Shown piece after piece: positions 9,261 to 60,473 of a DNA stretch of 64,000 bases. Both the position numbers and the translations under genes were made by a program. Source of the stretch: Tillus elongatus (Eukaryota; Arthropoda; Insecta; Coleoptera; Cleridae); the NCBI GenBank assembly GCA_964006375.1, contig OZ023264.1, positions 170,970,295-171,034,294 of the forward strand, given 5' to 3'. The notes under the pieces were generated by a model. That model saw nothing but the letters and a program-made list of their open reading frames with translations, ran no database searches and was not told where the DNA came from. Every line of letters begins with the position of its first letter. Positions within the stretch are counted from its first letter, which is position 1.

Positions 9261-9536
9261 TTGATAATAAATTAAAAAAATTAGATATTTTTATCACGTT
9301 CTCAAACAATAATACAGCATTTAAAATTTAATATATATGCCTGATTTTATTTCACCAACTTTTCGCTTTTCCAAAATTTATTATTTTAAAATATAAATCA
9401 CTTTATTATTTCATGCTACATACAGATTAAAGGTTGATATACATCAATGACATAAATTCCCATTCATACATTCATTTGCGAAATTTAAAAGTTCCATATA
9501 GTTCTATTAAACAGAAGGCCTTTGTTATTAATACAG
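9261..9536. other. Unassigned AT-rich DNA
   Basis: Nothing recognised. Confidence 0.4.
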
Positions 9537-9642
9537 AACTAAGTGAGTGGTGGACGTGCCGCCACCTAGTTGCGGAATCAAGTAGTATGTTGTCACGCCA
9601 GCTCCAAATAACACAGTGTAAAAAAAAACAGAGACTGTATAC
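9537..9642 (-). repeat. Partial retrozyme-like monomer, no ribozyme
   Basis: Homologous to the first third of the 320-bp unit at 16927: it shares AAGTGAGTGG, CCACCTAGTTGCGGAA, AAGTAGTATG and CACGCCAGCTCCAAATAAC. It stops before the hammerhead region. Confidence 0.75.
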
Positions 9643-10984: not shown

Positions 10985-13852
10985 TTACAAAAGTCTGGAC
11001 GCAGCAAGTGCGTTATGGAAGTGAATTTCTATAAAAATGTTTTTAAAAGCAAATGTGTCTTTTTAATGCAAGCAGTCATCAATTTGGTTACTGGTATAAC
11101 CTATATAGTGGAAACAGTGTGCCATATTTTATCAAAATAAGTTATTGTTTGAAAATGTACAGGGTGATTTTTTTAAGTGTCTCACCCCTGTAATTTTTTT
11201 ATTATTAGAGATATCAAAACAATTCTAACGCCGTCTGAAAAACTATCATGCGATGAGTTAAAATATTGCGACAGAAAAACAATTGCACATCGCCTTCATA
11301 GAAATCCGTGGCCAACGTTGATTTTCTTAAATAGAATGATAGGCCTCAGACACATAAAGTCGATGCAGAATCTAAATCTGCGTACAACGATGCTACGCTC
11401 GCATTTCTGAGTCAAGCCGTTTCGGAGACATGACGTCACAAAATTTCAAAATGTTGCTGATTTTTTTAAGTGTCTCACCCCTGTAATTTCTTTATTGTCA
11501 GAGATATCAAATAAATTCTAACTCCATCTGACAAACTATCATGCGATGAGTTAAAATATTGCGACAGAAAAACAATTGCATATCTCCTTCATAGAAATCC
11601 CTGGCCAACGTTGATTTTCTTAAATGGAACGATAGGCCTCAGACACATACAGTCGATGCAGAATCGAAATCTGCGTACAACGATGCTACGCTCGCATTTC
11701 TGAGTCAAGCCGTTTCGGGGACATGACGTCACAAAATTTCAAAATGTTGCTGATATTTTTAAGTGTCTCACCCCTGTAATTTTTTTATTATCAGAGATAT
11801 CAAAAAAAATTCTAACGCACTCTGACAAACTATCATGCGATGAGTTAAAATATTGTGATAGAAAAACAATTGCACATCGCCTTCATAGAAATCCATGGCC
11901 AACGTTGATTTTCTTAATGGAACGATAGGCCTCGGACACATACAGTCGATGCAGAATCGAAATCTGCGTACAACGATGCCACGCTCGCATTGCTGATTTT
12001 TAAGTGTCTCACCCCTGTATTTTTTTTATTATCAGAGATACCAAAAAAATCCAACGCCATCTGACAAACTATCATGCGATGAGTTAAAATATTGCGACAG
12101 AAAAATAATTGCGCATCGCTTTCATAGAAATCCACGGCCAACGTAGATTTTCTTAAATGGAAAGATAGGCCTCAGACAACTACAGTCGATGCAGAATCGA
12201 AATCTGAGTACAACGATGCTACGCTCGCATTTCTGAGGCAAGCCGTTTCGGAGACATGACGTCACAAAATTCAAAATGTTTGTGATTTTTTAAGTGTCTC
12301 ACTCCTGTAATTTCTTTATTATGAGAGATAACCAATAAATTCCAACGCCATCTGACAAGAAATAGTTTTACGTTATAAAGCAGTTCGCAGTGAATAAATT
12401 ACCCCTAAAGCATTTTGCTCTATGTGCCACATGAACGGCGTTATCTTCCGTTACAGAGCTCTGCCCGACATGTATATTCTTGTTATGTTTTAGTTGTATA
12501 AAACACAAGAAAAGCGAATTTGCCATAATTTCTTTGTATTTTCAAAATATTAAAAAAAATTACACCTCCGCACTATGTAGGTACTACACCTCGTAGTGAA
12601 AATATTAAACGTATTTCATTTGAGACTGGATGATAAGTTATATCTATTCAGTGCTGTATACGTCAGTAAAATCTTTGATAATGGATGTCTGATTTTGACA
12701 TTTGATGTCAACTGACACTTGATTTGAATGAGATTGAAACCATTTTCCGATTTCGTATATGTGTATCGTTCTTTCGTTTTCGTCAATCAAAAAGTTATCA
12801 GCATTCTGTGTAATTTAAGTATTCTTTCGTTTGTTTTTCCTTTATTCAGCAATTATTACAGAAGTGAGACACTTAAAAATTTACAAACATTTTAAAATTT
12901 TGTAACGTCATGTCTCCAAAACGGCTTGACTCAGAAATGCGAGTGTGGCATCGTTGTACGCAGATTTCGATTCTGCATCGACTTTATGTATCTGAGGCCT
13001 ATGGTTCCATTTAAGAAAATCAACGTTGGCCACGGATTTCTATGAAGGCGATGTGCGATTGTTTTTCTGTCGCAATATTTTAACTCATCACATGATAGTT
13101 TGTCAGACGGCGTTAAAATTTTTTTGATATCTCGGACAATAAAAAAATTACAGGGGTGAGACACTTAAAAAAATCAACAACATTTTGAAATTTTGTGACA
13201 TCATGTCTCCGAAACGGCTTGACTCAGAAATGCGAGCGTGGCATCGTTGTACGCAGATTTCGATTCTGCAACGACTGTATGTGTCTGAGGCCTATCATTC
13301 CATTTAAGGAAATCAACGTTGGCCACGGATTTCTATCAAGGCGATGTGCAATTGTTTTTCTGTCACAATATTTTAACTCATCGCATGATAGTTTGTCAGA
13401 CGGCGTTAGAATTGTTTTGATATCTCTGATAATAAAAAAATTACAGGGGTGAGACACTTAAAAAAATCAACATTTTGATATTTTGTGACGTCATGTATCC
13501 GAAACGGCTTGACTCAGAAATGCAAGCGTGGCATCGTTGTACGCAGATTTCGATTCTGCGTCGACTGTATGTGTCTGAGGCCTATCGTTCCATTTAAGAA
13601 AATCAACGTTGGCCAGGGATTTCTATGAAGGAGATATGCAATTGTTTTTCTGTCGCAATAATTTAACTCATCGCATGATAGTTTGTCAGATGGCGTTGGA
13701 ATTTTTTTGATATCTTTTGTAATAAACAAATTACAGGGGTGAGACACTTAAAAAAATCACCCTGTACAAACAATTTCCAAAATAAACTTTAAATGTCGGT
13801 TTCCTAGCCCACAAACCTTAGGTTAATAGCAACTTACTGCGTCTCGATTTTT
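10985..13852 (-). mobile_element. GGACGCAG-type MITE, split by the foldback element
   Basis: The left half (about 10991-11159) begins TCTGGACGCAGCAAGTGCG and is the reverse complement of the right half of the MITE at 6765-7088. The right half (13765-13850) continues it from TGTACA through TTAATAGCAACTTACTGCG. The two halves rejoin at a TA that is duplicated around the inserted foldback element. The right half has an internal deletion of roughly 55 bp. Confidence 0.8.
11160..13764. mobile_element. Foldback transposon with arms of ~290-bp tandem repeats
   Basis: The ends are perfect inverted copies of CAGGGTGATTTTTTTAAGTG, each flanked by TA (11158-11159 and 13765-13766). The left arm holds five direct units, with the shared TCTCACCCCTG block starting near 11181, 11474, 11767, 12009 and 12298. 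Spacing is 293, 293, 242 and 289 bp; the 242 reflects an internal deletion. The right arm holds three to four inverted units, with GAGACACTT near 12866, 13158, 13451 and 13741. A unique spacer of about 500 bp (12362-12858) separates the arms. Each unit carries TTTCGGAGACATGACGTCAC and CATCGCATGATAGTTTGTC-type blocks. There is no transposase. TA target and CAGGGTG ends point to mobilisation by a Tc1/mariner-type enzyme, but the architecture is that of foldback elements. Confidence 0.88.
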
Positions 13853-16349: not shown

Positions 16350-16926
16350 TAACAGACTTACTTTAATAAAGTTTGGAACATGTTGCGCTTATTAAGCTTA
16401 TATCACATACTAAGTTTAAAGTCTCTTGCTTTGGGGAATGTCGACTTCCAAGAATTAAAAATTTCTTCCAGACGATAGTTTGCTTTTATAGAAGCTACAA
16501 TACGTACCAAATTTAAAGTTTATATCTTTTAAGAAAGCTGAATTATTAACATTAAAAAAACATAAGCAATATTGTAATCGTAGTTTACAGTGCGTATGGT
16601 CTGGTAATAGGTACAGTGAAAAGATGCACAAAGATGTCTAAAAACATTAAAATCGTATAGAAAAAAATATGATCTTTTTATTGTTTGTGTTTAGTGGGTA
16701 TTATTACCGATGATCGTAAATATTGCAAAGAACTACGTATCGCAATGGCAAAGCAGAGACTAAGTACTTCTGTAAACGACAAATGCTTTAACTTTGATCT
16801 GACAAGAAGTTTTTTATAACATTTTAAGATGCCCTATCCCATTTATTTTATAAGGTTATTAGTTTACAAAATACTAAAAAAATTGGACTGTCGTGACCAT
16901 AGATAAGAAAAATTATCTAACATTAA
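16350..16926. other. Unassigned AT-rich DNA
   Basis: No gene recognised. Confidence 0.4.
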
Positions 16927-17136
16927 CTGAGTGGTAAGGCACAAAGCAACGTGCCGCCATCTAGTTGCGGAACCAAGTAGTATGTGGTCACGCCAGCTCC
17001 AAATAACACAAAGTGTTAAAAAATAGAGACTGTATACAACCGACTAACAAGTTAGTAAATTGTCAGCCCTGGCCAATTTCTACCCTAATATAGGGGAAAA
17101 GTATGTAAGGCTAGACGCATTTTCGCCACAATTAGT

Positions 17137-17179
17137 ACCGTAGATCGGTTTCGCTCTAATTAGAGCTCGTCAGTACGGC
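17137..17179 (-). ncRNA. Hammerhead ribozyme, unit 1
   Basis: On the minus strand: stem I GCCGTA, core CTGACGA, stem II GCTCT-AATT-AGAGC, core GAAA, then ACCGAT, cleavage triplet ATC, stem I' TACGGT. All core bases are present. Stem III is weakened because the palindrome ACCGGT has become ACCGAT. Confidence 0.75.
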
Positions 17180-17437
17180 ATACTAATTGTGGCGAAAATA
17201 CACCTATAAAGTAATACGGCCATGGTAGCCAACGTTCGAACACTAAGTGAGTGGTAAGACACGAAGTAACGTGTCGTGACCTAGTTGCGAAACCAAGTAG
17301 TATGTTGTCACGCCAGCTCCAAATAATACAAAGTGTTAAAAAATAGAGACTGTATACAACCAACTAACAATTTAGTAAATTGTGAGCTCTGGCTCATTTC
17401 TACCTTAATATAGGGACAAAGTATGTAAGGCCAGATG

Positions 17438-17715
17438 CAGCGCCGGCTTTAGGGTGGGAAGATCGGGGCCGTTTCCCAGGGCGCCAGGGATGAGGGGCAC
17501 CGCGCGCGCCAACGTATGTGTCAACGAGCCCTCACAAGAGTTGCGCATCTAATAAATTTAAAATTATATTAAATTTAAAATAAATGTGCTACCCAACTAA
17601 CTTCTTTTATTATTTTAATATATAATTATACATAAGTATTATATCATTTTCATATAATAAAGGGCGCCAAATGATTGGCTCGCCCAGGGCGCCTGGGTGG
17701 TTAAGGCCTCCACTG
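17438..17715. mobile_element. hAT-type MITE with 8-bp TSD
   Basis: The element is 278 bp, flanked by the direct repeat GCCAGATG at 17430-17437 and 17716-17723. The ends are imperfect inverted repeats, CAGCGCCGGC and CAGTGGAGGC, with CAG termini. The 8-bp TSD and CAG ends are characteristic of the hAT superfamily. The interior is GC-rich at both ends and AT-rich in the middle, with no coding. It interrupts a retrozyme unit, so it is younger than that array. Confidence 0.88.
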
Positions 17716-17742
17716 GCCAGATGCATTCTCGCCACAATTAGA

Positions 17743-17785
17743 ACCATAGACCGGTTTCTCTCTAATTGGAGCTCTTCAGTACGGC
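17743..17785 (-). ncRNA. Hammerhead ribozyme, unit 2 (degenerate)
   Basis: The core CTGAAGA and GAAA persist, stem III ACCGGT and the GTC site are intact, and stem I still pairs apart from a wobble. Stem II has lost its closing G-C pair and one internal pair, so activity is doubtful. Confidence 0.6.
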
Positions 17786-18062
17786 ATACTAATTGTAGCG
17801 AAAATACACCTATAAAGTAATACGGCTATGGTAGTCAGCCTTCCAACACTAAGTGAGTGGTAAGGAACGAAGCGACGTGCCGCCACCTAGTTGCGGAACC
17901 AAGTAGTATGTTATCACGCCAGCTCCAAATAACACCAAGTGTTAAAAAATAGAGACTGTTTACAACCAACTAACAATTTAGTGAACTGTCAGCCCTGGCC
18001 TATTTGTACCCTAATATAGGGACAAAGTATGTAAGGCTAGATGTAATCTAACCTGAATTAGA

Positions 18063-18105
18063 ACTGTAGACCGGTTTCGCTCTAATTAGAGCTCGTCAGT
18101 ACGGC
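18063..18105 (-). ncRNA. Hammerhead ribozyme, unit 3
   Basis: Core CTGACGA, perfect 5-bp stem II with AATT loop, GAAA, palindromic ACCGGT as stem III and the canonical GTC cleavage site. Stem I GCCGTA faces TACAGT with one mismatch. The self-complementary stem III implies that two monomers pair to form the active dimer. Confidence 0.8.
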
Positions 18106-18112
18106 ATACTAA

Positions 18113-19189
18113 AGTTATCTACTTTTGTGACATGTTACACCATATATGATTCGACAGTATTCTGTCAGTGATCCAGATATGAACAATTTACAGAATGAAC
18201 AACCTAAATTTTTACGCATACACAAAGTGTAAATGAAAACAACGTAGCTGTTGACGATCCCATTGCTGCATGTCCAAGAAACATATGATTCTTGACACAA
18301 TATTCAATAGAAAGCAATCAATAATATTCAATGTACATACCTAAAGAATTCAACTTATCATATTGCAGTACAATTGTATGATTCAGTACAAATAAATTTT
18401 TAATCTATCGATTCCTTTGTGTATAGCTTCCTGTAAGGAAATTAGACTGGCATGATTTCCTGCAATATTAACCCGGCAGCACGATCAATGTTAGAAAGGT
18501 AAGAACACAACTTCCTGCTGTATCGAATTGTGCATTATGATGCCGCATTATTGACGTAACACGGCAGGAATCAGAAGACGACCTCGAGACGAGTAACTCC
18601 AGAGATAATTCGGTGGAGCAGAGTAGAACACGGTAGCGGAACACCAGAATAGTTAGTTCTAATTAAGTTTTTCTCACGTCAGTGATACCTAATGGGAGGA
18701 TCTAACGAGCACTCGTTAGCAACAGAACGTGCCTTTGTCACAACACAATAACATTGGTCCTTAACGTTACGATATCCTCGGTGGAAACGTAACAGTATAT
18801 AGAGACACACCTATACGTTGCGGCTTCTACACGGCTTACTTGATTGTAGCAATTTATGGCTGTTTAGGTATTACAGTGCAACAACAATAGTATTTCCTTA
18901 GCTCTTGCTATCATTAAATTAGTTGGAGAAGATCCTGTTCTTAATGCGTTTACAGAAATTGACCGTAGAATTGGCAATAATACATGCATATTATATTAGA
19001 AATGATATTCATATAAGGTAGATGTAGCAAGCTTTATCAGAAGAACTCAAAGAGTGATTTCAATCTTTTAAGAGGTGTTGGTGGTGCATGAAGGGAGTAC
19101 GCTGTAATTACCACTGTCGCCCACTTTACAAAAAAAAAATACGATCCTGCCACTACCATGTCTATACGTCTACAAATTAGTACTATATA
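18113..19189. other. Unassigned DNA, moderately GC-richer at 18.4-18.85 kb
   Basis: No convincing coding frame, element end or repeat partner inside the window. The base composition near 18.4-18.85 kb differs from the flanks, so a decayed element is possible. Confidence 0.4.
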
Positions 19190-21098
19190 TTTTTTTTATT
19201 TCAACAACACACCACGAGGGCTCACAGCCCAAATACTATCGTACCGTGGCTGTCGACAAAGAGGAAAGAGGCAACTTGTTAATTCTGGACTTGAACTTTT
19301 GGCGGTTAGAAGGAGAAGGAAAAACATGTGCCGGCAAGGAATTCCACAACTTGTAAGTCCTCGGGACAAAAGAGCGGGCATAACAAGATGTTATATGTTT
19401 GGTGACCTGGACAGAAAAAGGGTGCATTCGCTCTGTTCCTCTGGTAGATCTGTTGGGGGCAGTAGGTGGAGGAACTATGGAAGAAAGATCCTTTGAGCAC
19501 TGCCCGTGCAGATATCTATAAAAGAGAGAGAGAAAGAGATAGAGAGAGAGGTCGCCAACGGCACGTCGGTGTGCAAGAGGTAACAGCCTTTAGGTGAGGG
19601 TAGGGTCACTGATGAGACGTATAGCACTCGTCCGAATTGAGTACATGATAGCGAGTGTATAAGCGGCAGCGGCACCCCAAATGTGGGAGCAGTATTCGAG
19701 GTTTGGCCTTATTTGTAAAGTTTATAAGATATAGAGATTGGCTGGTGAAAAGTATTTGCGAGATCGAAAGAGGAAACCGGATTTCTTAGCAGCCGCTTCT
19801 GTAATTGATGTGACATGTTGGTGGCAAGTGAGATCAAGATCCACAGAAATGCCTACAAGTGAAAAGCACTTATTACTTTGAATAACTTGGTTGTTCATTG
19901 TGATCGGTCTAGGGCTGGTGTATCTCTTATGATATAGAAAGCAAGATTGAGATTTGGTGGAGTTGAATTGTACGAGATTTCTACTTTCGCAGTCTAATAT
20001 TTTTTGGAGATCCATGGAGACAGAACCATCCATGAGTCTGCGATCCTCATCTAATTGGGCTGAAGAAACAGCCTTAGAAAATTGTATATATGAGTGGAGG
20101 TTGCTGTCATCCGCGTAACTGTGAACTGGGTTGGATGTGCTAGAGAGGAGGTCACTGATGTGGAGGAGAAACAAAGTAGGGGCTAAAGTTAAACCTTGAG
20201 GGACTCCTGCATTAATTGGATACAGCTAAGAGGAATAGCCATCCACGACAACAGGAATGGTCCGGTGGGAGAGGAAATTTGCTGTCCAGGTACAGAGTTT
20301 TGGTGGTAGGCCATAGGCCGGAAGTTTATTAATCAGCGCTGCGTGCCAGACCTGGTCTAGTGCTTCGGATATGACTAGAGCGACAGTCTGGGATTCACCG
20401 TGTAGTTCCATAGACCTGCTCCACGAATGGGTGACACAGGAGAGGAGATCGGCACTTGATCTGCGTTGACGGAATCTATACTGCCTGTCATGGATTAGTG
20501 TTTTTCAATAAATTTTAGTAATTCGGTGTTTATATGCTTTTCCATTACTTTAGAGATGACTGAAAGGAGAAAAATAGGCCTGTAGTTGCTAGGAACCGCT
20601 TTGGATCCTTTTTTGGGGACGGGTTGTACTCGAGCAGTTTTCCAGTTACTAGGAAATTGCTTCTATTGTAAGATGTCTGAAACAGACTAGTCAGGGCAGG
20701 TGCAAGTTCTGGTGCGCATTTCTTGAGAACAATTGCTGAGATCTCGTCGAGGCCAGAGGCTTGCCTGATATTACGAGAAGAGAGCATCTCTCGTATCTTT
20801 TTAGTTTTCAAAATGATATCCGTCATTTAATGCGCGACATTGGTGACTGTTGATGGTTGAATATTTGAAGATGGGATGAGAGTAGAATTGCCGGCGTACA
20901 ACGAGGCAAAAAGTTCAGCCTTGCCCAGGGCGGTAGAAATAATTTCATCCCCTGAAAAAAGAGGTTGGAACGTGCTCTTGCAGAAATTATTCCCAATAGA
21001 TTTAGCAAAAGTCCAGAAGGGTTTGCTGCCGTTGGAGCTTGAGATGACTTTGTTTTTGATGTGGTTATTATACGAGTTTTTTGCCTCAGAAAGAATGC
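19190..21098 (-). pseudogene. LINE family A copy 1, 5'-truncated reverse transcriptase
   Basis: APE-type LINE (Jockey/CR1-like) read from about 21098 down to a poly(A) at 19191-19200 on the minus strand. In order: the start of the RT domain near 20826-20545 (SGLDEISAIVLKKCAPELAP); a palm segment with DQVWHAALINKLPAYGLP at about 20330-20400; the catalytic YADDS at about 20103-20117; and a C-terminal thumb region to about 19250. Frameshifts between 20411 and 20545 and at several later points, plus in-frame stops, make it a pseudogene. Endonuclease and ORF1 are missing. The 3' end GTGTTGTTGAAAT plus A-run is identical in form in copies 3 and 4. The 5' boundary lies against a truncated MITE. Confidence 0.85.
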
Positions 21099-24769: not shown

Positions 24770-26580
24770 TATGGAGCGAAAACCTGGACTATAGCCGAGT
24801 AAGCTACAAACCAAATATAAGACTTAGAAATGAGGCCACGAAGAAAAATGACAACGAGGCGGTACGGCAATAGGAAGGTGAATGAACGTGTGTTATAAGA
24901 GCTGAGAGTAGAACAGTGCTTTCTCAAAGAAATTCAAAGGAGGAAAGCAAAACGTATTGGTTCTATTCTGAGACATGATAACTGCCAACGTTATTCAAAG
25001 GATATGTACCTCGAGAAACGGAAAGTAGAGCAAGGAATCTTCTGAGAAGTCTGGTTACAAAGCAAACAGAAGCCTTAGAAATGAGACCACGAAGAAAAAT
25101 GACAACAAGCCGGTACGGCAATGGGAAGGTGAATGAAAGTGTGCTATAAGAGCTGAGAGTAGAACAGTGCTTTCTCAAAAAAATTAAAAGGAGTAAAGCA
25201 AAACGTATTGGTTCTACTCTGAGACATGATAACTGCCAGCGTTATTCAAAGGATATGTACCTCGAGAAACGGAAAGAAGTAGAGCAAGGAATCTTCTGAG
25301 AAGTCTGGTTACAAAGCAAACAGAAGCCTTAGAAATGAGACCACGAAGAAAAATGACAACAAGCCGGTACGGCAATGGGAAGGTGAATGAAAGTGTGCTA
25401 TAAGAGCTGAGAGTAGAACAGTGCTTTCTCAAAAAAATTAAAAGGAGTAAAGCAAAACGTATTAATTCTATTCTGAGACATGATAACTGCCAACGTTATT
25501 TAAAGGATATGTACGTCGAGAAACGGAAATAAGTAGAGCAAGGAATCTTCTGAGAAGTCTGGTTACAAAGCAAATAGAAGCCTTAGAAATGAGACCACGA
25601 AGAAAAATGACAACGAGGCGGTACGGCAATAGGAAGGTGAATACAAAATGTGCTATAAGAGCTGAGAGTAGAACAGTGCTTTCTCAAAGAAATTGAAAGG
25701 AGGAAAGCAAAACGTACTGATTCTATTCTGAGACATGATAACTGCCAACGTTATTCAAAGGATATGTACCTCGAGAAACGGAAAGAAGTAGAGCAAGGAA
25801 TCTTCTGAGAAGTCTGGTTACAAAGCAAATAGAAGCCCTAGAAATGAGACCACGAAGAAAAATGACAACGAGGCGGTACGGCAATAGGAAGGTGAATGAA
25901 AGTGTGCTATAAGAGCTGAGAGCAAAACAGTGCTTTCTCAAAGAAATTGAAAGGAAGAAAGCAAAACGTATTGGTTCTATTCTGAGACATGATAACTGCC
26001 AACGTTATTCGAAGGATATGTACCTCGAGAAACGGAAAGAAGTAGAGCAAGGAATCTTCAGAGAAGTCTGGTTACAAAGCAAATAGAAGCCTTAGAAATG
26101 AGACCACGAAGAAAAGTGACAACGAGGAGGTACGGCAATAGGAAGGTGAATTAAAGTGTGTTAGAAGAGCTGAGAGTAGAACAGTGCTTTCTCAAAGAAA
26201 TTATAAGGAGGAAAGCAAAACGTATTGGTTCTATTCTGAGACATGATAACTGCTTACGTTATTCAAAGGATATGTACCTCGAGAAACGGAAAGAAGTAGA
26301 GCAAGGAATCTTCTGAGAAGTCTGGTTACAAACTAAATAGAAGCCTTAGAAATGAGACCACGAAGAAAAATGACAACGAGGCGGTACGGCAATAGGAAGG
26401 TGAATGAAAGTGTGCTATAAGAGCTGGGAGTAGAACAGTGCTTTCTCAAAGAAATTGAAAGGAGGAAAGCAAAACGTATTGATTCTATTCTGAGACATGA
26501 TAACTGCCAACATTATTCAAAGGATATGTACCTCGAGAAACGGAAAGAAGTAGAGCAAGGAATCTTCTGAGAAGTCTGGC
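24770..26580 (+). repeat. 254-bp satellite derived from a LINE ORF2 C-terminus, 7 units
   Basis: The CTCGAGAAACGGAAAG block recurs at about 25010, 25261, 25515, 25770, 26024, 26278 and 26532 (spacings 251-255 bp). Just before the first unit, 24773-24815 reads VYGAKTWTIAE. Each unit reads LEMRPRRKMTTRRYGN.. and ..RRKAKRIGSILRHDN. This is the order of the post-RT tail of RTE/related LINEs (YGAETWTL, then RRILKI-type, then KxxxIGHxLRHD). Every unit contains in-frame stops after KVNESVL and QGIF, so none encodes protein now. The conserved stops across units show that the pseudogene was already dead before amplification. Confidence 0.8.
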
Positions 26581-27748: not shown

Positions 27749-27984
27749 CCCATAATTCACTATGTGAAAACTGGAACCTGTGATGAGCACTAATCAGTAC
27801 ACTTAGAGAAACCCAAATCACCACAACACATATTTCAGACACCTTACGATCGTTTCGTTGACAATATCAACATCTTCAGAGGAAAAAATTCTCTTCCTAT
27901 GAAGATGTTGACATTGTCAACGAAACGATCGTAAGGTCTCTGAAATATGTGTTGTGGTGATTTGGGTTTCTCCAAGTGTACTTA
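27749..27984. mobile_element. Inverted PLE terminal-repeat hairpin with 8-bp TSD
   Basis: Two arms of about 83 bp (27800-27880 and 27900-27982) are near-perfect inverted copies containing CCCAAATCACCACAACACAT and ACGATCGTTTCG. The same sequence occurs singly at 40026 near the PLE coding remnants. CGAAGGGA flanks the insert at 27741-27748 and 27985-27992. The insertion split a tRNA-like sequence between its A and B boxes. Confidence 0.78.
27842..27882 (-). ncRNA. Hammerhead ribozyme motif in PLE arm
   Basis: Minus strand: stem I CCT, core CTGAAGA, stem II TTGAT-ATT-GTCAA with a wobble pair, GAAA, palindromic ACGATCGT as stem III, GTA cleavage triplet, then AGG completing stem I. All core residues are intact. 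The opposite arm (27896-27936, plus strand) has the same fold, but the first core C is changed to A, predicting an inactive twin. Confidence 0.7.
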
Positions 27985-38912: not shown

Positions 38913-39464
38913 GAAAACGATTTAGTTTTTACTAAAGCTGATAAAGGCAATAAAACAGTAGCTATAAATTGGGATGCATATAATCCAACAATCTCCTTTT
39001 AATTTATTTCAGAAAACATTTCAAAAATTTTAAATATCTGTACAAATACAAAGGTAGCTTTTAAATCTTACAACACGTCGCGTGATTTACTATTTAACGC
39101 TAAAGAAAAATCTTGTTTCCTGACAAAAGCTGGAGTTTATAAATTAGATTGTACACATTGTAATGCATTCTACATAGGTCAAACTTCTAGAAATTTTAAC
39201 ACCCGATACAAAGAACATATTTCTGCATTTAGAAATAACCACGCTGACAAATCTACATTTGCAAAACATAATATTGATACCGAACATAGACCTACAGTAA
39301 ATAACCGCATACAACCACAAAATTTTTATAATGACAAACGTAAACTAGACTTTTTTGAAGCTTTTGAAGTCAAAAAGCACACACACGACAATAGCTACCT
39401 TGTTTTAAACGAGCAAACTGATTTAATGAATTCCGTTTTCTTGGATATTCTTCTTTCTAATTAA
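38913..39464 (+). pseudogene. PLE polyprotein remnant: RT start joined to GIY-YIG endonuclease
   Basis: 38913-38994 reads ENDLVFTKADKGNKTVAI, the N-terminal ADKG motif of Penelope-like RTs. After a stop and a deletion that removed the catalytic RT, a frame from 39003 to the stop at 39462-39464 holds the linker and a GIY-YIG endonuclease. The endonuclease shows AGVYKLDCTHCNAFYIGQTS and RYKEHISAF, with the paired GVY and YIG, the Cys pair, and the Arg/His residues expected of the family. It ends LNEQTDLMNSVFLDILLSN. No ATG starts it. The endonuclease segment looks intact, but the element cannot work without RT. A hammerhead motif lies 340 bp downstream. Confidence 0.87.
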
Positions 39465-40110: not shown

Positions 40111-40466
40111 ATTCTAACAACTTTAAAAACTTACATCACCTTATATACCGGATCTTAGGTAAAGAAGCGGAACCGAGGGGCGAATAAGTCGCAGGCAAAT
40201 TCTGCAGGGTATTGTATTTTGATCGCGGGACGAGGTCTTTGAACTGTCTTTATTAATTAAAATATGTCCATATCTACTCATTTTGGGAAGGTTCAACGAC
40301 AACTAAATTAACATAGTTTCCTTTGGCGGAAATATCTGTATTATTATGTTATCTCTAGGACGTGTTGAAACGTGGGAATTTATTTATTTATTTATTTTAC
40401 AAAGCAATCGATCAGGTGACTCGTAATCGGCGGCGGTGAAACATTTTTTGTTGTAACTATATTTCG

Positions 40467-40468
<2 letters not shown>

Positions 40469-40539
<71 letters not shown>
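40469..40539. repeat. (TA)n microsatellite
   Basis: Pure TA tract of 71 bp. Confidence 0.97.
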
Positions 40540-40540
<1 letters not shown>

Positions 40541-40651
40541 TCTCGAACGCGTTTAGCTCTCCTGGTTGTTTAACGTTTTTTCTTAATTTAAGATTATCTT
40601 CATTAACATGATGATTATTATCCCAAATATGTCGGGCGACGGAAGATCTAT

Positions 40652-41032
40652 CTATAGTACCGTAACGTAATTGGGCGTAAAGTGTTCTTTGAATCTAATT
40701 CCAATCGATCTTTTTGTTTGTCTGACGTACTTAAGATTACAGTCTTTACAACTTATTTCATAAATTTCCGACATTTTGGCCGTGCTATCCTTGTCCTTTG
40801 GGTTACCTAGCGAGTTTTTAAATGTATTTTTTGTTAAAAATGTTAGCTGCAAGTTGACTTTTTAAAAAATGCTATCTAGACCCCTCGTGATTCGAGGTTC
40901 AAATGGTAAGCAAGCAAAGTTTTTTTTGTATTTCTCTCTTCTAAACCTTGATTCCATCAACATTTTCTTTGTTTTGTGTTTGTTGATTAGTTTTTCCACT
41001 AGGCAAGCAGTGTATCCGTTATATTCGGCCAC

Positions 41033-57744: not shown

Positions 57745-58130
57745 AGGTCGCCGCCTAGTTGCGGAACCAAGTAGTATGTTGTCACGCCAGCTCCAAATAA
57801 TACAAAGTGTTAAAAAATAGAGACTGTATACAACCAACTAGCAATTTAATAAATTGTCAGCCCTGGCCCATTTCTACCCTAATATAGGGACAAAGTATGT
57901 AAGGCTAGATGTATTCTCACAACAATTAGAACCGTGGACCGGTTTCGCTCTCATTAGAGATCGTCAGTACGGCATACTAACTGCTGCGAAAATACACTTA
58001 TAAAGTAATACGGCTAAAGTAGCCAGCCTTTCAACACTAAGTGAGTGGTGAGCGGGTCGCCACCTAGTTGCGGAACCAAGTAGTATGTTGTCGGGCCAGC
58101 TCCAAATAACACAAAGTGTTAAAAAATAGG
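57745..58130 (-). mobile_element. Retrozyme-like locus 2
   Basis: One full unit and the start of a second, spaced 309 bp (AAGTAG block ends at 57774 and 58083). They are homologous to the array at 16.9-18.1 kb across the unit (CCTAGTTGCGGAACCAAGTA, TAATATAGGGACAAAGTATG, CACTAAGTGAGTGG). A second locus 40 kb away shows that this is a dispersed mobile unit, not a local satellite. Confidence 0.8.
57931..57973 (-). ncRNA. Hammerhead ribozyme, locus 2
   Basis: Core CTGACGA and GAAA intact, stem III ACCGGT and GTC intact. Stem II has lost its closing G-C pair (G to T) but keeps CTCT/AGAG. Stem I GCCGTA faces CACGGT with one mismatch. Confidence 0.68.
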
Positions 58131-58394
58131 AAATCATTCAACACAAGAAGGAAATAGGTCTTAAAACATCCAAGCTACTAAGTGTATGTCTTATAAACAA
58201 GATTGTTCTACAAGTACATTTTTAATATTGTTATTTTTTTTTCATTGTCAAAAATCATTGAATATGTTTACATTTATAAATCTTGGACGTGTGATGTATA
58301 ATAACATAATTTAAAAGAGTTGATCCAGAAGAGTTTGACAATGCTAAGCCACATTCAGTAAAATTTTGACCCGACAAAAGTAAATTTGTATATA

Positions 58395-58998: not shown

Positions 58999-59315
58999 AT
59001 ACACGCTGGCCCATTGAAAACGAGCCGGCAGCCATAACTGCTAGGAAAATATTTTGTTGAAAAAAAAAACCTGAAACAGCTCAAGTTTGCTTTTGAGGGG
59101 GACAACTTTAGACGCGAAAAGTATAACACAAACTTTACCCTCCTAAGCAGGGGTGTCATCCCTCAAACTTTTTCTGATAGCACGTTGAAAAGAGCCTTTG
59201 ATTTCCTATATGTTGCTTTGTTATTTTTGAAATTCAGTCTACTCGTTTAGAAGATATGGATTTTGAAATATCACTAATGCATTTCCCTGGAAATTCTTAA
59301 TGCAGGAGAACAGTA

Positions 59316-60473
59316 TTTTTTATATTTCAACAACACACCATGAGGGCTTACAGCCTAAATACTATCGTACCGTGGGTGTCGACAAGGAGGAAAGAGGCAA
59401 CTTGCTAATTCTGGACTTAAAGTATTGAGGTTCGTAGGAGAATGAATAACATGTGCCGGCAAGGAATTCCACAACTTGGAAGTCTTCGGAACACAAGAGC
59501 GGGCATAACAAGATGCTCTATGCCTGGTGACCTGTACAGTAAAAGGGTGCATTCGCTCTGTTCCCCTGGTAGATCTGTTGGGGGCAGCAGGTGAAGGAAC
59601 CATGGAAGAAAGCTCATCTGAGCAGTGCTCGTGCAGATATCTATAAAAGAGAGAGAGAGGTCACCAACAGCACGTCGGTCGGCAAGGGAGGGCAGCCTTT
59701 GGGTGAAGGTAGGGTCACCGCTGAATGGAGTCCAGGCTAGAGGGTGTAGAAGCGGCAGCTCCCAGATGTGGGAGCAGTATTCGAGGTTTGGTCTTATTTG
59801 TGAAGTATATAAGGTATAGAGATTAGCTGGTGAAAAGTATTTGCGAGCCCAGAGGAGAAAAGCTAATTTCTTAGCAGCCGTTTCTGCAATTCATGTGACA
59901 TGTTGGTACCAATTGAGATTTCGATCCACAGAAGTGCCAACAAGTGAAAAGGACTCATTACTTTGAATAACTTGGTTGTTCATTGCGATGGGTCTAGGGC
60001 TGGTGTATCTCTTATGAGAAAGAAAGCGAGATTTGGTGGTGTTGAATTGTACAAGATTTGTACTTCCCCAGTCTTAAATTTTTTGGAGATACACAGAGAC
60101 AGAACCCTTCATGAGTCTGCGATCCTCATCTAATTGAGCTAAAGATACAGGCTTAGAATATTGTATATTTGAGTGGAGGGTGCTGTCATCCGCGTAACTG
60201 TCAACTGGGTTGTATGTGCTAGAGAGGAGGTCATTGATGTGGAGAAGAAACAAAGTATGGGCTGAAGCTGAACCTTGAGGAACTCCTGCATTGATTGGAT
60301 ACAGTTTAGAGGAATGGCCATCCACAACAGAATTGCTCCGGTTGGAGCGGAAATTTGCTGTCCACGTACAGAGTTTTGATGGTAGTCCATAGGCCGGAAG
60401 TTTATTAAGCAGCGCTGCGTGCCAGACCTGGTCGATTGGATATGTCTAGAGCGACAATCTGGGATTTGGAATT
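59316..60473 (-). pseudogene. LINE family A copy 4, nested in DD41D element
   Basis: Minus strand from 60473 to a poly(A) at about 59316-59326. It contains the DQVWHAALLNKLPAYG region at about 60400-60430, VPQGSASAHTLFLLHINDLL, the intact YADDS at about 60184-60199, and the C-terminal RHRASCYARSCVPKTSKLWN region. The 3' end GTGTTGTTGAAATATAAAAA matches copies 1 and 3. 5'-truncated; multiple frameshifts. At 60473 the sequence switches within a few bases to transposase. Confidence 0.85.

Follow-up and report, generated by a model that had tools for sequence, protein, structure and literature searches.

Tandem and Dispersed Repeats with Decayed Type I Hammerhead Motifs in the Beetle Tillus elongatus Represent a Probable Family of Non-LTR Retrozymes

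We analyzed a 64-kb stretch of the Tillus elongatus genome (64,000 nucleotides of contig OZ023264.1; referred to here as the window). A tandem repeat on the minus strand (array A; positions 16919 to 18114) consists of three units, all of which contain a hammerhead ribozyme motif. The unit boundaries were set by aligning the units with one another, and the resulting span differs by a few bases at each end from that of an initial annotation (16927 to 18112). A direct-repeat search revealed a start-to-start spacing of 320 bp for the first units and a further spacing of 606 bases. Unit 1 (16919 to 17238, minus strand) is 320 bp long, unit 2 (17239 to 17844, minus strand) is 606 bp long and interrupted by an insertion, and unit 3 (17845 to 18114, minus strand) is shortened to 270 bp and ends within the outer stem of the ribozyme. 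The initial annotation had proposed three 320-bp units; the tandem homology and the first spacing agree with this description, while the split unit 2 and the 270-bp unit 3 depart from it.

Unit 2 owes its 606 bp to a 275-bp sequence (17440 to 17714; strand not applicable) that jumped in and duplicated 11 bp; the duplication, GGCCAGATGCA, flanks the insert at 17429 to 17439 and 17715 to 17725. This insert may be another short retroelement. We also observed a CCCAGGGCGCC-type repeat near both ends of the insert.

The array is richer in G+C (42.3%) than the whole window (34.6%), and its units adjoin one another directly, with no coding sequence between them. A protein-coding repeat was ruled out for array A, in which the longest stop-free stretch is 71 codons. 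A search for tRNA genes detected none. Neither a search of viral contigs with the ribozyme pattern (0 matches) nor a distant search of plasmids returned anything, as expected for an animal repeat.

A sensitive search with the unit detected two more copies of the family in the window, both absent from the initial annotation. Array B (57746 to 58134, minus strand) is a dispersed second copy of ~1.2 units that carries a fourth hammerhead (B1), and copy C (9536 to 9642, minus strand) is a partial unit of ~107 bp without the ribozyme region. The family thus occupies three separate loci within 64 kb, with end points that differ along the unit. Pairwise differences among the copies were 10.8 to 17.7% (gaps excluded) with no clear grouping by array, and the units of array A differed as much among themselves as from B1 (10.8 to 12.9%). 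Such a pattern would be expected for old insertions derived from similar sources. A stretch of 11 nt near the unit start is common to the three units of array A and absent from B2 and copy C; the units of array A therefore have common ancestry.

Other repeats are present in the window. Two arrays of a 293-bp tandem repeat (11165 to 12236 and 12855 to 13760) have consensus units that look like reverse complements of each other, and the Rfam search of these arrays listed no ribozyme families at E values up to 1. A 254-bp tandem repeat (24805 to 26579) has seven copies with 94% matches. A hairpin at 27843 to 27935, which is probably a palindromic transposon, gave matches to the MIR5649 microRNA model on both strands and to mir-977 on the plus strand, all below the cutoffs. 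Long (AT)n microsatellites account for 24 of the 33 tandem-repeat rows in the window, the longest being 222 bp.

On the minus strand, each hammerhead motif reads in the order stem I, CTGACGA, stem II (GCTCTAATTAGAGC), GAAA, helix III, C, and stem I'. The type I order that the initial annotation assigned to every unit was recovered in all three units of array A, with scores below the Rfam gathering threshold. In a search of 2.2 kb with thresholds relaxed, the array A region gave its three highest-scoring matches to the Hammerhead_HH9 model, one for each unit on the minus strand (27.1, 23.0, and 20.8 bits; E values, 0.00053, 0.011, and 0.055, respectively). The gathering score of this model is 52, and the Rfam check suggested in the initial annotation was in this respect negative. 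In the Rfam search of the whole 64-kb window, two of the three units were listed at E values up to 1 (0.016 and 0.32), and no match reached a gathering score.

A script looking for the core together with ≥4 bp of stem II found the motif in units 1 and 3, two of the three units of array A. The initial annotation had considered the core intact in these same two units; this is correct for the core with stem II, while stem I of unit 3 contains a C.A mismatch. A strict descriptor (requiring the core, ≥4 bp in both stem II and stem I, and a UH cleavage triplet) matched one site in the window, in unit 1, versus none in 150 random 64-kb sequences built from the dinucleotide steps of the window. The hammerhead motif is not a product of chance, though it scores low on the Rfam models. 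Furthermore, the hammerhead lies at the same unit position in all four units that hold this region (three in array A, and B1). Both strands were scanned with Rfam and with the descriptors, and a plus-strand ribozyme was rejected because no hammerhead was listed on that strand.

The four hammerheads, all on the minus strand, differ in their state of preservation. That of unit 1 (17121 to 17191; predicted cut, 17143/17142) has an intact core, stem I, and stem II, and its helix III, ACCGAT, is nonpalindromic. In unit 2 (17721 to 17789; predicted cut, 17749/17748), helix III is the palindrome ACCGGT, and CTGANGA and GAAA are kept, with stem II broken by two mismatches (G.A at its base and C.A at its loop end). 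The hammerhead of unit 3 (18047 to 18113; predicted cut, 18069/18068) has an intact core and stem II, one C.A in the inner stem I, and a shortened outer stem. In B1 (57912 to 57994 with the outer stem; predicted cut, 57937/57936), which has the palindromic ACCGGT, the base of stem II is a U.C mismatch and the first pair of stem I is an A.C mismatch beside the cleavage site. Thus, CTGANGA and GAAA are kept in all four hammerheads, and stem I or stem II is damaged in three of them.

Taken by majority, the four copies give a full canonical core and undamaged stems (i.e., CUGACGA, GAAA, a GUC triplet, inner stem I and stem II of 5 bp each, and a helix III of A-CCGG-U), with every copy damaged at places of its own. 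The source element was therefore probably active, and the simplest reading of the four sequences is that of an active source with decayed copies. No copy combines an intact stem I, an intact stem II, and a palindromic helix III, so that cleavage by the loci in the window is doubtful; these copies are probably weak or dead as ribozymes. Minimum-energy folds form the hammerhead stems for unit 1 and not for unit 3, and in those of unit 2 and B1, core bases are drawn into competing pairs.

We compared the conservation of the ribozyme with that of the rest of the unit by counting differing alignment cells, excluding columns with fewer than three letters. The ribozyme core and inner stems differed in 10 of 188 cells (5.3%) versus 66 of 1,009 (6.5%) for the left part of the unit and 9 of 132 for the part to the right of the ribozyme; the outer arms had higher values (6 of 48 and 7 of 44). 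These counts revealed no excess conservation of the ribozyme over the rest of the unit, a level that fits neutral decay after insertion. The circular fold of one unit (17749 to 18068, minus strand) was 64% paired (z = −2.4 versus 200 shuffles), which is below the value of >70% stated in the literature (PMC4918200).

The initial annotation proposed dimeric cleavage through a palindromic ACCGGT, taken to be present in every unit. The palindrome occurs in units 2 and 3 and in B1, and unit 1 has ACCGAT instead. Helix III accordingly self-pairs completely (6 of 6 pairs) in three of the four copies, while unit 1 forms only 4 of 6 pairs when matched with itself and 5 of 6 when matched with any other copy. 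The layout of ACCGGU, a single A-U pair closed by a palindromic tetraloop, makes the dimer idea plausible; HHR_Amex1, the satellite hammerhead of axolotl, has this layout, and its dimeric constructs were reported to cut far better than monomers (PMC7229834). The hammerhead described here resembles that of newt and axolotl in having a helix III of a single pair with a palindromic tetraloop, and its dimers would likewise be expected to perform better (PMC7229834); it differs in its host and in the lack of a palindrome in unit 1. Dimeric action is likely for the source element. The idea fits unit 1, as sequenced, badly, since the palindrome is lost. When two ribozymes were cofolded, bigger, misfolded duplexes resulted, which spoke neither for nor against a dimer. 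Dimeric cleavage via a palindromic helix III is not new, having been published for newt and axolotl and proposed for Aedes.

Stem I extends past an internal loop as a 17-bp outer stem. In the three copies with both arms (units 1 and 2 of array A, and B1), all 51 cells of this stem are paired, although five pairs vary. One of these pairs forms the series C-G, U-G, and A-U, and the other four change on one side only, always giving G.U on the minus strand and A.C on the plus strand. Such one-sided changes, which preserve pairing on the minus strand alone, point to selection on RNA. When the seven changed bases were placed randomly in a neutral simulation, which was devised post hoc with the pattern already seen, all cells stayed paired with P values between 0.00003 and 0.004, according to the proportion of transitions. 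A shuffle control for pairing was not beaten (266 of 500 shuffles reached the observed percentage), a comparison with little power at four rows. In unit 3, where the 5' arm is cut, one of the five outer-stem cells with letters is unpaired. In our view, these sequence comparisons provide moderate evidence of selection for folding of the minus-strand RNA. Among the base differences in the outer stem (17112 to 17206), three are of the A/G type on the RNA strand, and editing of a double-stranded transcript could be an alternative source of these.

The 7-bp sequence TTATCTA is present at both alignment boundaries of array A, at 16913 to 16919, where its last base is shared with the array, and at 18115 to 18121, at the array end (strand not applicable). 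Random pairs of positions gave an equally good match in 0.65% of cases under a strict null and in ~5% under a looser one. This repeat is probably a target-site duplication. Array B and copy C gave no convincing duplication, so that one was seen at one of the three loci.

Non-LTR retrozymes have been described in many animals, with insects named among them; they are reported to have RNAs of ~170 to 400 nt, a GC content of <50%, and target-site duplications of >4 bp (PMC7229834). Putative animal retrozyme RNAs include that of a tick (PMC4918200). The spacing of 320 bp found here falls within the range used for retrozymes (~150 to 450 bp, dimers to multimers). Like the retrozymes of coral, mussel, and axolotl, the present family consists of tandem noncoding units of a few hundred base pairs, each with a type I hammerhead, and has a GC content of <50%; RNA circles and cleavage were shown for those systems, whereas the copies described here are degenerate and were read from sequence (PMC7229834). 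Retrozyme sequences are said to be species specific (PMC7229834). Among insects, the pDo500 repeat of Dolichopoda is also a tandem repeat with one hammerhead per unit, for which a double-hammerhead mode was proposed; its unit is ~500 bp long and makes up ~5% of the genome of one species, and the likeness is one of description (PMC2837043). For the Aedes aegypti hammerheads, which lie in interspersed repeats and are again likened by description, dimer formation via a palindromic loop III has been proposed, with a dimer stem of 10 bp versus 6 bp here (PMC3088659).

Taken together, the repeats are dispersed, noncoding, head-to-tail units of ~320 bp with ~42% GC and a type I hammerhead on the minus strand. 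We consider it highly probable that they form a family of animal non-LTR retrozymes represented by old, decayed copies. The retrozyme reading of the initial annotation is supported by the noncoding ~320-bp repeat, the hammerhead in all four units, the dispersed arrays, and the probable duplication. The element would have spread as follows. The minus strand would be transcribed as a multimer, which the hammerheads would cut into RNAs of ~320 nt. A hammerhead alone would cut poorly, since its helix III consists of a single A-U pair under the palindromic cap CCGG; two hammerheads joined in a common 6-bp helix III would cut better. The unit RNA would then be closed into a circle by a host ligase, and a reverse transcriptase acting in trans (from a Penelope-like element or a LINE) would copy the circle past its start into tandem cDNA. 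The cDNA would be inserted into the genome, and the copies in the window would have decayed since.

The ends of the loci bear on how the RNA was copied. The RNA 3' ends of array A and copy C lie within ~3 nt of each other (unit position, ~1 to 4), while that of array B differs. The cut site is at unit position 225, far from these 3' ends, and the end shared by array A and copy C lies between two cut sites, ~224 nt past the first and ~96 nt short of the second. A variant of the mechanism is that reverse transcription started from a fixed internal point and not at the ribozyme cut, in which case outer stem I might be a second selected part (e.g., the binding site of a helper enzyme). Given the position of the 3' end, such a fixed-start reading would call for a template that was either a multimer left uncut or a circle that had been resealed. 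Pairing in the outer stem was maintained through G.U and double changes as single copies accumulated damage in their catalytic stems. With three loci, the shared end could be due to chance (~7% by our own estimate), and we regard the fixed-start variant as unlikely.

Alternatively, the repeats could be a satellite DNA that spread by DNA-level duplication (i.e., unequal exchange or DNA circles), with the ribozyme only trimming transcripts. The tandem arrangement would suit such an origin, as would the distances within array A, which equal those to B1, and the cave cricket satellite pDo500 offers a precedent with a hammerhead in every repeat (PMC2837043). A satellite accounts poorly for three separated loci within 64 kb, one of them a lone fragment, for the probable duplication at the ends of array A, and for outer-stem changes that are tolerated as G.U pairs on one strand only. 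The flanks argue in the same direction. A comparison of ~3 kb of flanking sequence to the left and right of all three loci detected nothing shared directly beside the arrays; therefore, no segmental duplication carried the copies. The only long match in the flanks (1,208 bp) was a reverse transcriptase fragment, with unlike sequence between it and the arrays, and segmental duplication was accordingly rejected as the cause of dispersal. Shorter shared repeats were also found farther out than this match. We thus judge a satellite origin improbable.

The stretch to the right of arrays A and B gives matches to reverse transcriptases, and the two similar fragments (19188 to 20395 and 59314 to 60466; 1,208 bp, 84.5% identity) begin to the right of the arrays at distances of ~1.1 kb (array A) and ~1.2 kb (array B). 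Reverse transcriptase and RNase H domains were detected by Pfam in three of the five open reading frames (ORFs) first examined, and a protein search with one reverse transcriptase ORF returned, among the best 120 of 308 relatives, named ones from moths, butterflies, and nematodes. We consider two further ORFs (39003 to 39464 and 40392 to 40694) similar to the GIY-YIG end of Penelope-like elements. Of these, the first is GIY-YIG-like in Pfam with an E value of 0.004, below the cutoff, and the second had no Pfam GIY-YIG match. A PDB search with the GIY-YIG-like ORF returned nothing useful, and as a candidate helper this ORF is only a lead.

Another alternative is that the arrays are remnants of the pseudo-LTRs of a Penelope-like element, which lie in tandem and carry minimal hammerheads. 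Penelope-like elements are known to carry hammerheads and to lie in tandem (PMC11167929, PMC7761336), and both the GIY-YIG-like ORF at 39003 to 39464 and the reverse transcriptase fragments 1.1 to 1.2 kb from arrays A and B could belong to such an element. The published motifs also share with ours the type I order, a weak helix III, a tandem layout, and a suggested use of dimers (PMC6155905, PMC7761336, PMC11167929). However, Penelope hammerheads sit in the pseudo-LTRs of a coding element, whereas the units here abut without coding sequence (PMC6155905, PMC7761336, PMC11167929). Moreover, stem I of the present motif includes an internal loop followed by an outer helix of 17 bp, in contrast to the minimal Penelope motifs, which are described as being without helix III and tertiary contacts (PMC6155905). 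Eight ORFs neighboring the arrays gave no GIY-YIG match, and no hammerhead descriptor match was found near the GIY-YIG-like ORF. A Penelope origin of the repeats is therefore very improbable. A chance likeness to a hammerhead within an unrelated repeat would agree with the Rfam scores below gathering, and it deserves practically no credence given the absence of descriptor matches in the 150 random windows, the full core in the majority of the four copies, and the outer-stem pairing kept through base changes.

An apparently new retrozyme family, likened to the published families by description and not by sequence comparison, is the best explanation for these repeats. The element type itself has already been published and is not new. 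Dimeric cleavage, as proposed in the initial annotation, is plausible for a fully self-pairing stem III, as in three copies, and fits unit 1 badly, where only four of six pairs form. The present repeats add a further family to the animal retrozymes. If intact copies exist, they would provide a system with newt-type, probably dimeric hammerheads for studying both the making of RNA circles and the reverse transcriptase that copies them. In addition, strand-specific G.U pairs in an outer stem offer a cheap test that may be applied to other families, to distinguish an RNA from a DNA repeat as the entity under selection.
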